In this document: positions 38,703 through 43,138 of the stretch, one piece after another
Numbering within the stretch: the first letter of the stretch is position 1
Layout of the letters: each line of letters begins with the position of its first letter
Source: Lachnospiraceae bacterium
GTDB lineage: Bacteria; Bacillota; Clostridia; Lachnospirales; Lachnospiraceae
Assembly (NCBI GenBank): GCA_024690825.1
Contig: JAILOK010000135.1
Span: 1-43,860 of the forward strand
Reading direction: 5' to 3'
Length of the DNA stretch: 43,860 bases
Position numbers and translations under genes: made by a program
Notes under the pieces: model-generated
What the model saw: the letters and a program-made list of their open reading frames with translations, nothing else
Databases searched by the model: none
Told to the model about the DNA's origin: nothing

Positions 38703-39605
38703 TCATCCTTCAAGCATTGATTCGCATATATCACAGATAAAGCATTTTTCATCATCATTCCAGGTGAGTTTGCCTTCCTCACATACAGGACAGATGCCGC
38801 CGTATTTTGAATTCCAGATATAATTGGCTTTTTCTTCCTTTGGCGCGTTTTCTTCTTCTTTTTCAAGCAGAAGTTTTGCGGCAGCAGTTTCGACAGCAGT
38901 TTCGACAGCGGTTCCAACCGGGGTTTCAACAGCGGTTTCGGCTGTGTTTCCAAACTGCGTTGCTCTTGCAAGTCTGTAGGTCTGTTTCAGATTGATGTAC
39001 TCATTTATGGAAGGAGTTATCGTCAGTATCTCGCATCCGCAGCGGGCGGAACCGTCTTTCTGTATAGTGACATGCAGGATCCTGCCCTTGATATAAAACG
39101 TTTTTTTAAGGACATCATCGGTAAAATGTGTATATATGAGCCTGTGCATCAGGTTCTTTTCGGCAAGCTTCACATCTACATTCGCCCCTATTCCGGTTAC
39201 GGATATGTCATTGATATAGCAGGGATATTTGCCGTTGAGGAGGCTGATCGTGCAGTCGGCCTGTATGCCTACCGGGATCCTTACGGCGCCCCGTCTGTTT
39301 TCAGGCACGCTCTCGTCTTTTGAAATAACGGCATATCTTTCCCTGTCTCCGAATTCATGCAGGACCTGAACACTGTTCCAGATATGAGTACGGCCCGAAG
39401 CCTGGTTGGTATAAAGAATGGCGAAATTCTCGCATCGGTTGTCCAGATTGAGGGTACTTCCGGCTACAACTATTGGAGGAATATATATCCCGTCTTTTTC
39501 TTCTCTCTCTTTCGGTTCAATGGATGTGGTGAAATTGAATTTCCGCCCTGACAGGAAGAAGCTTATTATTATATTATCGGTTTTCGGGATCTCCCACAGA
39601 AACAT
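38703..39605 (-). CDS. PilZ c-di-GMP-binding protein with C-terminal zinc ribbon
   Basis: A 300-residue protein. Residues 1-95 form a beta domain before PilZ, like a YcgR-N module. The PilZ core starts at about 102 with the c-di-GMP motif R105-xxx-R109 (ENRRGAVRI) and D133-x-S135-x-x-G138 (INDISVTGIG). Residues 225-250 are Val/Glu/Thr/Ala repeats, and the C-terminal end is a zinc ribbon with C272, C275, C288, C291 and C294. PilZ with a YcgR-like domain slows flagella or shifts secretion when c-di-GMP rises; the ribbon is unusual here and may bind a partner. GGAGG lies 7 bases before the ATG. No cyclase or EAL protein is in the window. Confidence 0.85.
   Translation of the reverse strand: MFLWEIPKTDNIIISFFLSGRKFNFTTSIEPKEREEKDGIYIPPIVVAGSTLNLDNRCENFAILYTNQASGRTHIWNSVQVLHEFGDRERYAVISKDESVPENRRGAVRIPVGIQADCTISLLNGKYPCYINDISVTGIGANVDVKLAEKNLMHRLIYTHFTDDVLKKTFYIKGRILHVTIQKDGSARCGCEILTITPSINEYINLKQTYRLARATQFGNTAETAVETPVGTAVETAVETAAAKLLLEKEEENAPKEEKANYIWNSKYGGICPVCEEGKLTWNDDEKCFICDICESMLEG
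38882..38941. repeat. Five tandem 12-bp repeats in the PilZ gene
   Basis: Five consecutive units of 12 bases (CAGCAGTTTCGA, twice exact, then three variants). On the minus strand they encode a repeated four-residue Val-Glu-Thr-Ala-like block before the zinc ribbon. Copy number could vary in frame. Confidence 0.8.
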
Positions 39606-39809: not shown

Positions 39810-39818
39810 ATGAAATGA
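39810..39818 (+). other. Two-codon reading frame ATG AAA TGA overlapping the sensor kinase start
   Basis: ATGAAATGA at 39810-39818 is a minimal frame whose stop overlaps the kinase start codon (ATGA 39815). GGAG at 39799-39802 is 7 bases before this ATG but 12 before the kinase ATG, so ribosomes may start here first and re-initiate. Confidence 0.4.
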
Positions 39819-42800
39819 GCAGTCAGAGTATAGTCTTTACGAATGATAACTGCATAGGCTGCAACAGATGCATCAATGTATGCAGCGCTATCGGCGCATG
39901 TGTTTCCGGAGAAGTAGATGGGAAGGCACGTATTCATGTGGATGGGAGCAAGTGCATTGCCTGCGGAAGCTGCATGGATGTCTGTGTTCACAATGCAAGA
40001 GAGTATGTGGATGACACGGAAGCTTTTTTTGCTGATCTCAAAAAGGGTGAACCGATATCCCTGCTGCTTGCTCCTGCTTTCAAAGCAAATTATCCCAATG
40101 AATATGAAAGTGTTCTCGGAGGCTTAAAGGAACTGGGAGCCCGCAGGATCATAAGTGTTTCATTCGGCGCGGATATCACGACCTGGGGATATCTCAACTA
40201 CATCGACCGCTATGATTTCACAGGCGGAATCTCACAGCCCTGTCCGGCAGTTGTATCCTACATCGAACGCTATCTCCCGGAGCTGATACCAAAGCTGTTC
40301 CCGGTACAGAGTCCTCTGATGTGCGCGGCAGTCTATGCCAGAAAGAAACTCGGCGTCACGGACAGGCTGGCATTTATCAGTCCCTGCATCGCCAAAAAAC
40401 TGGAGATTGAAGACCCGCATAATAAAGGACTGGTTCAGTACAATGTCACATTTGACCATCTGATGCGTTATATCAGGGAACACGGCATCAAGGGCGATCC
40501 TGCAAACAGTGAGATCGAATACGGTCTGGGCTCTTATTATCCCACCCCCGGAGGACTGGCGGAGAATGTGCGGTGGTTTTTGGGAGACAGTGTTTATATC
40601 CGTCAGATCGAGGGAGAACGTCATCTCTATGAGTGGATGCATGAAAATGCTTCACGAATAAAGAATAATGAGACACCGTTCCTTTTTATCGACGCATTAA
40701 ACTGTGAGAAGGGCTGTATATGCGGTACTGCGGTCAATCCCGAAAAATCGCGGACAGATGATGCTCTTTATTCGCTTTTGGATATCCGTGAGGCCTCTAA
40801 AAACAGCCGGAGCGGGATGGCCTGGTCAAAATCTGATACACCGGAGGAAAGGCTTAAGAACTTCAATGATCAGTTCAGTGATCTTAAGCTTTCGGATTTT
40901 CTGCGCGGATATACCGACCGTTCGGCGGAATGTGCATACGATATCCCCAATGAAGAGGAGCTGGATGCCATTTTTCTCACCATGAACAAGGTGACCGACG
41001 AGAGCCGTAAGATCAACTGCACCTGCTGTGGATATAACAGCTGCATACAGATGGCTACTGCCATACATAACGGCTTCAATCACAGGGAAAACTGTATCTA
41101 TTACGAAAAAACCATGGTTCAGGAGCTGGCCATAGAAAAGTCAGTTGCAGAGGCAGCCACAAAGGCAAAGAGTTCTTTTCTTGCAAATATGTCTCACGAG
41201 ATCCGGACTCCCATAAATGCGGTTCTGGGAATGAACGAAATGATACTCCGGGAATGTCAGGATGCCAACATCATAGCTTACTCGGAAAGCATCAGAAGCG
41301 CAGGAGACACTCTGCTCGGACTGGTAAACAACATATTGGATTTCTCAAAAATAGAGGCCGGAAAGATGGACATCACTCCGGTGGAGTACGACCTCTCCTC
41401 TGTTATCAATGATCTGGTCAATATGATCCAGATCAGGGCAGATAATAAAGGACTCCTGCTTTCTCTGGATTTTGATCCCGACATTCCGAAGATCCTCTTC
41501 GGCGATGAGATCCGCGTAAAGCAGATCATTACCAACCTTCTCACCAACGCGGTGAAATATACACCGAAGGGAACCATCACCTTTTCCATGAAGCATTCGG
41601 AGACCGATGACCCGGCATTTATTGATCTGAATGTCAGTGTAAAGGATACGGGAATCGGAATAAAACCGGAGGATCTGAAGCTGCTGTTTGAGAAGTTCAG
41701 CCGGATCGAGGAAGAAAGAAACCGGAACATCGAGGGGACCGGGCTTGGAATGAATATCACTCAAAAGCTTCTGGAGCTTATGGGGTCATCTCTTGAGGTT
41801 GAAAGCGAATACGGACAGGGATCACGGTTCAGCTTTTCCGTACGGCAGAGGGTGATCAGGCGGGAACTCCTCGGAGATTATCAGTCTGCCTACAGGAAGC
41901 TTCTGAGCCAGCGGAAAACCTACCGCAGGAAGTTTACCGCGCCGGATGCCATGATCCTGGTCATCGACGACAATCCCATGAACCTCACGGTATTTAAGAG
42001 CCTTTTGAAACAGACTCTCGTGCAGATCGACACCGCTTCCGGAGGTGATGAGGGACTGACCCTTTCACTGGACAAAAAGTACGATATCATCTTTTTTGAC
42101 CATATGATGCCGGAAAAGGATGGCATCGAGACCCTGCACGAACTGAAGGCCCAGAGCACCAATCCTAACCTTTCCACTCCTTCGGTCTGTCTGACTGCCA
42201 ACGCCGTCTCCGGAGCCCGGGAGCAGTACCTTTCGGAAGGCTTTGACGACTATCTGACAAAACCCATCGACTCCTCGAAACTGGAGGAGATGCTGATCTA
42301 TTACCTGCCTGAAGATAAGGTTCAGTTATCCGTGCCGGATATAACGGAGGAGGAGGCTGATAAAGAGGAAGACATTGACGGGCGCTTTGCGGTCCTTGCC
42401 GATGTTCCCGGGATGAACATTTCCGATGGGATCACAAACAGCGGAGATGCCGACAGTTATATGGGAATGCTCCGGATATTTTATGATTCCATCGATGAAA
42501 ACACCGTGCTGATCAATAATTTCTACGAGACGGGAGACCTGAAGAACTATGCGATAAAGGTTCACGCTCTGAAAAGTTCCGCAAGGATCATCGGCGCAAA
42601 CGAGCTCGGCGAAGAAGCGCAGGCTCTGGAAACTGCGGGAAAAGAAGGAGATGAATCCTTCGTCCGCCGCCACCATGTTCCTTTCATGGAACGCTATGCA
42701 TCCATGAGATCGGCTTTGGCGGGGATATTTGAAGCTTCTGCGGCGGATGATGCCCTGCCCGAGGCGGACAGCGCAAAGATGGAGGAGATCTATGAAAGAC

Positions 42801-42973
42801 TTTATTCGGGCGCTGATGACATGGATACAGGTATCCTGGAGGATGCCTTCGAAGAGATGAAAGCCTGGCGTATTCCGGACAGCGAAACCGATATTTTTAA
42901 CAGACTCCATGAGGCGTTTCGCGCTTATGACTATGATTCGATCATAGAGATATTGAAACAGAGAAAACAGTGA
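39815..42973 (+). CDS. [FeFe]-hydrogenase-like H-cluster sensor fused to hybrid histidine kinase and Hpt
   Basis: A 1052-residue soluble protein. Residues 8-60 are a 2[4Fe-4S] ferredoxin (C13, C16, C19, C23; C47, C50, C53, C57). Residues 75-330 are an [FeFe]-hydrogenase large-subunit-like domain. L1 is GGISQPCPAV with C143; L2 SPCIAKKLE with C191; L3 ALNCEKGCICG with C297 and C301. The proton-relay Cys of TSCCPxW is Pro142. A further cluster motif CTCCGYNSC (C402-C410, plus C427) precedes a kinase: H461 in MSHEIRTP, ATPase NLLTNAVKYT, DTGIGI and GTGLGM. Then a receiver (phospho-Asp D762 in FFDHMMPEKDG, K816) and Hpt with H917 (VHALKSSARI). This fits sensory [FeFe] hydrogenases linked to histidine kinases (group C1). 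No membrane segment or PAS domain is seen. It is the only gene of its transcript. Confidence 0.9.
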   Translation: MSSQSIVFTNDNCIGCNRCINVCSAIGACVSGEVDGKARIHVDGSKCIACGSCMDVCVHNAREYVDDTEAFFADLKKGEPISLLLAPAFKANYPNEYESVLGGLKELGARRIISVSFGADITTWGYLNYIDRYDFTGGISQPCPAVVSYIERYLPELIPKLFPVQSPLMCAAVYARKKLGVTDRLAFISPCIAKKLEIEDPHNKGLVQYNVTFDHLMRYIREHGIKGDPANSEIEYGLGSYYPTPGGLAENVRWFLGDSVYIRQIEGERHLYEWMHENASRIKNNETPFLFIDALNCEKGCICGTAVNPEKSRTDDALYSLLDIREASKNSRSGMAWSKSDTPEERLKNFNDQFSDLKLSDFLRGYTDRSAECAYDIPNEEELDAIFLTMNKVTDESRKINCTCCGYNSCIQMATAIHNGFNHRENCIYYEKTMVQELAIEKSVAEAATKAKSSFLANMSHEIRTPINAVLGMNEMILRECQDANIIAYSESIRSAGDTLLGLVNNILDFSKIEAGKMDITPVEYDLSSVINDLVNMIQIRADNKGLLLSLDFDPDIPKILFGDEIRVKQIITNLLTNAVKYTPKGTITFSMKHSETDDPAFIDLNVSVKDTGIGIKPEDLKLLFEKFSRIEEERNRNIEGTGLGMNITQKLLELMGSSLEVESEYGQGSRFSFSVRQRVIRRELLGDYQSAYRKLLSQRKTYRRKFTAPDAMILVIDDNPMNLTVFKSLLKQTLVQIDTASGGDEGLTLSLDKKYDIIFFDHMMPEKDGIETLHELKAQSTNPNLSTPSVCLTANAVSGAREQYLSEGFDDYLTKPIDSSKLEEMLIYYLPEDKVQLSVPDITEEEADKEEDIDGRFAVLADVPGMNISDGITNSGDADSYMGMLRIFYDSIDENTVLINNFYETGDLKNYAIKVHALKSSARIIGANELGEEAQALETAGKEGDESFVRRHHVPFMERYASMRSALAGIFEASAADDALPEADSAKMEEIYERLYSGADDMDTGILEDAFEEMKAWRIPDSETDIFNRLHEAFRAYDYDSIIEILKQRKQ

Positions 42974-43101: not shown

Positions 43102-43138
43102 AAAAAACCCAGTAGAAAATTGTTTCTACTGAGTTTTT
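43102..43138. terminator. Bidirectional terminator, probably of the former tRNA-Gln gene
   Basis: CAGTAGAAA (43110-43118) pairs with TTTCTACTG (43123-43131), extended by A/T pairs at the base, with A runs on the left and T runs on the right. It can act for the sensor kinase on the plus strand and for the minus-strand tRNA, whose 3' end is only a few bases away. Confidence 0.8.

Follow-up and report, generated by a model that had tools for sequence, protein, structure and literature searches.

A sensory role for [FeFe]-hydrogenases is described as putative, with thin direct physiological evidence (PMC8924675; published statements, here and below, are those of the available portions of each cited source). 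Groups C1–C3 of HydDB comprise putative types linked to a kinase, to chemotaxis and to a phosphatase (PMC5037454), a C1 enzyme with a nearby but unfused kinase gene is on record (PMC6163223), histidine kinase (HK) or HATPase domains are fused to group C1/C3 H-domains in Hydrogenedentota (PMC11406978), and H2 sensing in the rumen via a PAS-bearing group C enzyme has been proposed (PMC6776011). Two described sensors, TmHydS of Thermotoga maritima (group C, or M2f) and TamHydS of Thermoanaerobacter mathranii (group D, or M2e), come from groups that have a C-terminal motif in common and lack the proton relay (PMC8163306), and both turn over slowly (PMC10055695, PMC8163306); TmHydS retains some activity despite Ala at the position of the relay cysteine, C299, where Pro occurs in about 10 % of sensory hydrogenases (PMC10055695). 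Here we describe a related protein encoded on a 43,860 nt stretch of DNA from Lachnospiraceae bacterium, a gut-type organism (assembly GCA_024690825.1, contig JAILOK010000135.1; hereafter the window), which is the whole of one contig (C13) in a 2.95 Mb assembly of 138 contigs that is 99.4 % complete. Its gene (39815–42973, + strand, as are all features of the gene given below) is an intact, single open reading frame (ORF) of 1052 residues with an ATG start. The product is a variant of the sensory [FeFe]-hydrogenases and not a new kind, as both its Pro142 and its kinase fusion have precedents; in this genome it stands about an even chance of being an H2-responsive hybrid histidine kinase that senses through an H-cluster. 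This reading is favoured in this host because the maturases HydE, HydF and HydG (together HydEFG) are present, with no client in sight other than the sensors.

The original prediction had placed two ferredoxin clusters, an H-domain, a further Fe–S motif, a kinase, a receiver and an Hpt domain in one chain, and both the ORF and Pfam bear this out. Two Fer4 domains form the N-terminal 2×[4Fe-4S] part (39851–39985; C13, C16, C19 and C23, followed by C47, C50, C53 and C57), and Fe_hyd_lg_C covers residues 85–304 (40067–40726; E-value 6.6e-28). Next comes the C-terminal cluster motif, Cx2Cx4Cx16C (41018–41095; C402, C405, C410 and C427), which takes the form reported for M2e and M2f (PMC8163306) and which matches FeS (PF04060) at residues 399–429 with 20.6 bits, under the Pfam cut-off of 23, its four cysteines nevertheless being invariant in 103/103 aligned sequences. 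The kinase half comprises HisKA/DHp (residues 451–516; 41165–41362), HATPase_c (563–677; 41501–41845), a receiver (REC) domain matching Response_reg (714–827; 41954–42295) and Hpt (885–950; 42467–42664). Aligning the window protein with 102 relatives, of which six are C3-like, shows no change at any of the 16 cluster cysteines (eight ferredoxin, four H-cluster and four C-terminal). Sixteen ORFs were dropped from alignment A1 (duplicates of the window or of other loci, stop-broken copies, matches to proteins other than H-domains, frames truncated at contig ends and L152, which nearly duplicates L147), together with matches under 130 bits; ten ORFs of the first three kinds were dropped from the table of pocket residues.

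Pocket positions are numbered here as in CpI, with C299, E279, E282, S319, R286, M353, K358, E495 and M497 taken by us to be the relevant residues. The four H-cluster ligands, C143, C191, C297 and C301, are kept as predicted. The L1 motif reads SQPCPAV (40232–40252), with Pro142 replacing the relay cysteine beside the ligand C143; L2 reads SPCIAKK (40379–40399), with ligand C191, Ser189 at the M353 position and K194 at that of K358; and L3 reads DALNCEKGC (40691–40717), with ligands C297 and C301, Asp293 for Glu and Leu295 for Met at M497. The loss of the relay cysteine and the altered Glu-x-Met of L3, both pointed out beforehand, are thus confirmed by the alignment. The group A relay positions C299, E279, E282, S319 and R286 are occupied by Pro, Tyr, Tyr, Phe and Tyr, and most of these exchanges typify the clade: Pro stands at C299 in 95/97 rows (50/52 in a smaller set), and when that smaller set was compared with 15 A/B-type proteins of the family, it had Tyr or His at E279 (50/52), Tyr at E282 (48/52), Ser at M353 (49/52), Leu at M497 (50/52) and Asp at E495 (50/52). 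The S319 position is variable, with Ser retained in 13/97 clade rows. By contrast, K358 is conserved in 51/52 rows, and in 96/97 of the bigger clade set; this lysine presumably faces a diiron cyanide, and C301 is expected, on our assumption, to bridge to the diiron site. A clade-specific cysteine, Cys170 (40322–40324), is present in 96/97 clade rows, is replaced by Met in 15/15 A/B-type rows and is found in none of the six C3-like rows. Since the relay cysteine has been lost together with its partners, continuous turnover would be slow, and the H-domain would report on H2 without using it; it is probably slow or silent as a hydrogenase, and a sensor of H2 or redox state. The forecast of little or no turnover was accordingly a reasonable one, if too firm, given the activity that TmHydS keeps despite its Ala (PMC10055695).

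With its four ligands in L1–L3, 2×[4Fe-4S] N-terminus, Cx2Cx4Cx16C C-terminus and lost relay, the protein carries the marks of the group C and D sensory hydrogenases. TamHydS resembles it in the N-terminal clusters, the H-domain, the C-terminal motif and the lack of PAS, as well as in the residues at M353 (Ser) and M497 (Leu) (PMC8163306), but has Ala rather than Pro at C299, keeps E282 (PMC10407848) where the window protein has Tyr, and is not described in the available text as having a fused kinase relay; TamHydS has a proton path of its own, E252/E289. TmHydS is alike in overall plan, loss of the relay cysteine and putative signalling role, but displays Gly and Ser in place of Ser189 and Leu295, and Ala in place of Pro (PMC8163306, PMC10055695). 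Group C (M2f) proteins possess a PAS domain after the C-terminal cluster, whereas the window protein, in agreement with the original prediction, has no PAS match in Pfam at E ≤ 0.1; the same scan did find PAS in L070, a C3-like protein of the family. As PAS was tested and is absent, the protein is not filed under group C M2f. The absence of PAS and the hydroxyl residue at M353 are marks of group D (M2e), and, judged from its residues, the pocket resembles that group. It can be set beside HydDB C1 and C2 by description: its output is a kinase, as in C1, and its HK clade nests in a family in which 58/97 rows are fused to chemotaxis domains, as in C2. Group C1/C3 proteins of Hydrogenedentota also join an H-domain and a kinase-type domain in one chain, but H-cluster motifs were hardly found in the C1 copies, and receiver and Hpt domains go unmentioned in the available text (PMC11406978). 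The protein had been said to stand apart from most described sensors in its lack of PAS and its Hpt domain; the proline and the kinase fusion are both already in print (PMC10055695, PMC11406978). In a literature search that left most of the subscription literature uncovered, no report was found of an H-domain, receiver and Hpt in one chain, of H-domain sensors in genomes lacking HydEFG, or of sensor–HydEGF operons.

Structure modelling, put forward beforehand as a check, gave a confident model of residues 1–440 (mean pLDDT 94.6), and its fold search listed 50 PDB rows (the best 50 of 73 at E ≤ 0.001), every one an [FeFe]-hydrogenase, with TMq of 0.62–0.69 and a best E-value of 4.6e-19 for HydA1 of a HydABC complex. 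Chance or mis-translation as the source of the gene is ruled out by the alignment, the model and this search. An AlphaFold2 model of residues 1–700 (mean pLDDT 86.2, pTM 0.65) predicts one unbroken helix, residues 428–480 (41096–41254), which begins immediately after the last cluster cysteine and runs beyond the phospho-acceptor H461; confidence is lower at the junction (pLDDT of 66 for residues 441–450 and 73 for 451–460). Pfam finds no HAMP or PAS domain between the C-terminal cluster and the kinase, and the model lends support to, without demonstrating, a mechanical coupling of the cluster domain straight to the kinase via this helix. Beyond it, all phosphorelay residues are present (H461, an N-box at 574, D762 in the receiver and H917 in Hpt), such that a HisKA histidine, an N-box ATPase, a receiver aspartate and an Hpt histidine make up a tripartite hybrid kinase. 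This HisKA–HATPase–REC–Hpt relay is that of BarA, ArcB and TorS; among the 25 NCBIfam rows listed, BarA and TorS are at the top and ArcB lower, all far under their cut-offs, alongside a B1 monomeric hydrogenase entry that is matched in part and likewise under its cut-off. The input, however, is unlike that of these kinases, being an Fe–S/H-domain module, and the Pfam matches include neither a transmembrane nor a HAMP domain.

With regard to the source of an H-cluster, genes for HydE, HydF and HydG each occur twice above the cut-off in the host genome (G000), arranged in two sets on contigs C111 and C14 (loci L045 and L046), with one HydG gene running off its contig end. The two sets are 74–87 % identical to each other (HydF, 76 %), and the cluster motifs are intact in the C111 set, to which the motif check was confined. 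A PF02906 search of the 138 contigs revealed only two proteins, the window sensor and a chemotaxis-type paralogue, and no catalytic [FeFe]-hydrogenase. As the genome's second sensor, the paralogue (L001:1210-3201, contig C128) falls in the clade of the window protein, has an MCP output and also bears SQPCPAV. Across 48 genomes of the genus, the sensor is present in 32, and HydG accompanies it in 17/32, as against 3/16 of the remainder (one-sided Fisher p 0.023, uncorrected for kinship); these sensor counts come directly from E-values in the search table (about 1e-33 to 1e-23, plus fragments) without re-scoring. Absence was judged at E-values of 1e-80 (family) or 1e-30 (genus) for HydG, 1e-40 for HydF and 1e-20 for HydE. 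Five genus genomes (G000, G209, G217, G226 and G236) possess HydE, HydF and HydG with sensors as the sole PF02906 proteins found. The reverse arrangement exists too: sensors are the sole PF02906 proteins in 11 HydG-less genomes, 9 of which also have no HydE or HydF, including G211, G213, G214 and G242 at 93–96 % completeness. As a separate observation, G203, G222, G227, G237 and G238 combine a group A-like hydrogenase, HydE and HydF with a lack of HydG (E ≤ 1e-30); the G222 assembly consists of 3 contigs.

In several loci the sensor and the maturases lie together. A chemotaxis-type sensor from the clade of the window protein is followed by HydE, HydG and HydF on one strand in L118, L129 and L130, and the same order recurs in L128, where the sensor frame is truncated at 469 aa; in L127 the sensor comes after HydE, HydG and HydF, in L120 and L124 it is near HydF in the opposite orientation, and on contig C25 of G151, as read from coordinates, HydG, HydF and the sensor follow in succession. 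Among 80 named loci, sensor/maturase operons occur in L174 (isolate AD3010), L177, L190 and L211, of which L174 and L177 repeat the G201 and G226 loci. Family-wide, 43 genomes including the host carry the sensor (best E-value up to 2e-70), and 31 of these are at least 95 % complete. HydF and HydG are both found in 17 of the 31, HydF without HydG in 3 and neither in 11, HydE being absent from 10/11; the search for HydE covered the genus and, of the 31 near-complete family genomes, the 14 without HydG. Persistence without maturases extends beyond the sensors, as PF02906 is present in 185/200 family genomes and HydG in 101, so A/B-type H-domains also persist without HydG. Genomes that have HydEFG and, as far as found, no H-domain proteins besides sensors, together with chemotaxis-type sensors in maturase operons, are new here, as are family genomes where no HydE, HydF or HydG was found yet the H-domain is under purifying selection.

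The latter follows from ratios of nonsynonymous to synonymous substitution rates (dN/dS) in 27 pairs of sensors that share branches among them (9 from HydEFG-less genomes, 12 from HydEFG-containing genomes and 6 mixed). For the H-domain, values are 0.024–0.058 (median 0.050, 9 pairs) in the HydEFG-less pairs and 0.017–0.067 (median 0.035, 9 measurable) in HydEFG-plus pairs; dS was saturated, leaving no H-domain value, for G229/G210, m229/m000 and e230/e239 of the latter, and several dS values exceed 1. The H-domain is thus under purifying selection also without HydEFG, and a decay of the sensor in such genomes finds no support, although values are slightly higher there. The C-terminal cluster part shows 0.057–0.105 in HydEFG-less (7 pairs) against 0.019–0.060 in HydEFG-plus lineages (7 pairs), from which a mild relaxation in the former is possible. 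Sensor pocket motifs are nearly identical with and without HydEFG, the exceptions being L165, from a HydEFG-plus genome, and L121, with Gly for Ser. Nor does a lack of HydG go with damaged ligands in H-domains of other types: L1 reads TSCSP, with Ser at the expected cluster-ligand Cys, in 28/40 group A-like family proteins (L247–L286), but this is so in 16/20 with HydG and 12/20 without, the 40 being strong A/B-type matches that were selected manually, not randomly, among the highest-ranking entries, and 2 of the 20 HydG-less proteins having no motif match.

Several observations weigh against an H2-sensing H-cluster. In its simplest form it sits poorly with TamHydS, where the oxidation state of the C-terminal cluster is unresponsive to H2 (PMC13104023). 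In the host itself, HydF of C111 and C14 is just 52–57 % identical to six genus copies, two HydEFG sets per genome are unusual in the genus, and tetranucleotide make-up does not settle the binning; both contigs could be mis-binned, and a catalytic hydrogenase could be absent only from the 138-contig assembly and not from the organism. G209, G217, G226 and G236 are less complete (75–89 %) than G000 (99 %), and the HydG gene of G217 is interrupted by one in-frame stop. The closest relatives of the window protein, at 85 % identity, belong to G231, G232 and G242 (85, 79 and 96 % complete), in which no HydE, HydF, HydG or other H-domain was found, and the pocket motifs of their sensors are unchanged. 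Linkage to maturases is confined to 4/80 named loci (4/43 of those of at least 10,200 bases), all of the chemotaxis type, the sensor–HydG link in the family is weak (22/36 versus 59/129, p 0.074), and HydE, HydF and HydG are all missing from 10/31 near-complete family sensor genomes. As the nearest relatives sit in genomes where none of the three was found, assembly of an H-cluster cannot be assumed family-wide.

These same absences form the case for an H-domain that holds only a protein-ligated [4Fe-4S] cluster and the three accessory clusters, with the diiron site absent or optional, and that senses redox state (or O2 or NO). To the near-complete genomes it can add the 9 genus genomes that lack all three maturases and whose PF02906 proteins are all sensors, an H-domain that is not decaying there and a pocket that looks nearly the same with or without HydEFG. 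Protists with the hydrogenase but without HydE/F/G maturases exist, so missing maturases do not prove a missing diiron site, and their absence is not special to sensors, given the A/B-type H-domains that persist without HydG. Conservation of K194 and C301, whose roles at the diiron site we assume, the sensor–HydEGF operons, the genomes in which HydEFG has no other client found and the hint of relaxation in the C-terminal part of HydEFG-less pairs also speak against it, and we regard a diiron-free sensor in this host as a serious competing reading, if one more doubtful than probable. An enzyme that still works, slowly, as a hydrogenase and by its turnover determines the redox state of the kinase-driving clusters would agree with the slow turnover of relay-less TmHydS and TamHydS (PMC10055695, PMC8163306), and Cys170 could, speculatively, serve as a substitute proton carrier; with all five relay positions exchanged, and no electron-partner gene among the Pfam-scanned neighbours, it is unlikely. 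That the protein is a functionless remnant of lost H2 metabolism, drifting, is very improbable: hosts often lack hydrogenase and maturases, family sensor copies L017 and L032 contain one in-frame stop each and the genus copy L128 is truncated, but H-domain dN/dS is low in every measurable pair, the 16 cluster cysteines are invariant and the kinase relay residues are complete.

If the window protein is an H2 sensor with an H-cluster, HydEFG would load the full cofactor into the H-domain, and binding of H2 (or CO), or the redox state of the H-cluster, would alter the C-terminal [4Fe-4S] domain. This change would travel down helix 428–480 and alter autophosphorylation of H461, from which phosphate would pass to D762, to H917 and on to a separate response regulator encoded elsewhere. 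A conformational rather than a redox route through the C-terminal cluster domain is the more likely, because the corresponding cluster of TamHydS does not respond to H2 (PMC13104023). With input and full relay fused in one chain and, in a handful of genomes, maturases that have no other client found, H2-dependent phosphorylation becomes testable without an interfering catalytic enzyme. The mismatch between conserved H-domains and missing maturases adds to the interest, as the maturase-free relatives provide a natural control that possesses a nearly identical pocket and no known source of a diiron site; should they signal, the H-domain would be a broader Fe–S sensor fold than assumed.

The wider family shows how readily the module is combined with other outputs. 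At least 80 named relatives exist, 53/80 of them labelled Lachnospiraceae (names of metagenome-assembled genomes are not all reliable), and the HK type is found in only 4/80 of their loci, whilst MCP is the output in 58/97 clade rows. The same module occurs upstream of HK-REC-Hpt, HK-REC, PAS-HK-REC, MCP, MCP-REC, GGDEF and GGDEF-EAL, and also of a HisKA-REC unit devoid of HATPase, in which Hpt is variably present. Outputs were called by Pfam for 28 relatives (27 of the clade and one C3-like, some cut by the end of the locus) and by short motif patterns for the rest, with nine MCP rows, one HK, one GGDEF-EAL and six C3-like rows set by hand from tail length or relatives; in the tree two rows are unlabelled, and L128 has no tail. 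In this tree, which is of the ‘quick’ kind and in which long branches are flagged (L069 groups with L054), the window protein falls within a starred clade of 17 rows, all HK, nested in a starred set of 46 rows with mixed outputs (HK 18, MCP 16, GGDEF/EAL 9 and MCP-REC 3). Starred branches require at least 6 label changes for HK, and 14 for all labels together at a minimum. The sensor module is therefore a plug-in that can be joined to a hybrid kinase, a chemotaxis receptor or GGDEF/EAL; what is new is a module with swappable outputs that, in the model, runs via one helix into the phospho-acceptor helix. We tentatively extend this to a general proposal, which we hold with rather less than even confidence: the hydrogenase fold would be a general plug-in Fe–S sensor, diiron-free in several Lachnospiraceae lineages, where selection maintains it although neither HydEFG nor a hydrogenase was found, with related lineages, including the host, keeping the H-cluster pathway only for their sensors, such that one family with the same pocket would contain both H2 sensors and [4Fe-4S]-only redox sensors, joined by one helix to kinase, chemotaxis or cyclic di-GMP (c-di-GMP) outputs.

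The surroundings of the gene offer no obvious partner for the kinase among the Pfam-scanned neighbours, which encode a PilZ protein, a Big_3-domain protein, PPK2 and glutamine synthetase III. A conserved partner gene was considered and ruled out, as 19 loci of the HK type and related types share no neighbour beyond close relatives; in 4 of them (L132, L134, L135 and L136), a gene for a 583-aa protein lies 3′ of the sensor, with no Pfam match when tested on L136. The PilZ-domain gene (38703–39605, − strand) is divergent from the sensor gene and absent from the relatives' loci examined. A terminator-like hairpin 3′ of the sensor gene (43110–43131, + strand) is a consensus match only, and a weak signal, with 5 such sites observed in the region where shuffled sequence would give 3.9; from its position, the sensor gene may be a single-gene unit.

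Some variation in the family concerns the outputs themselves. No Hpt domain was matched at E ≤ 0.001 in L157, from G231. In L141, L147, L148 and L150 the module precedes HisKA and REC, with Hpt in 3/4 and no HATPase by Pfam; these are perhaps phospho-acceptors lacking a kinase of their own, and phosphorylated by a partner. In L142, L144, L151, L156, L158, L159, L162, L163, L051, L069 and L165 the H-domain module stands before GGDEF-EAL or GGDEF (called by Pfam for L162, L051, L069 and L165, by hand for L142 and by motif for the six others), arrangements in which H2- or redox-controlled turnover of c-di-GMP is possible.

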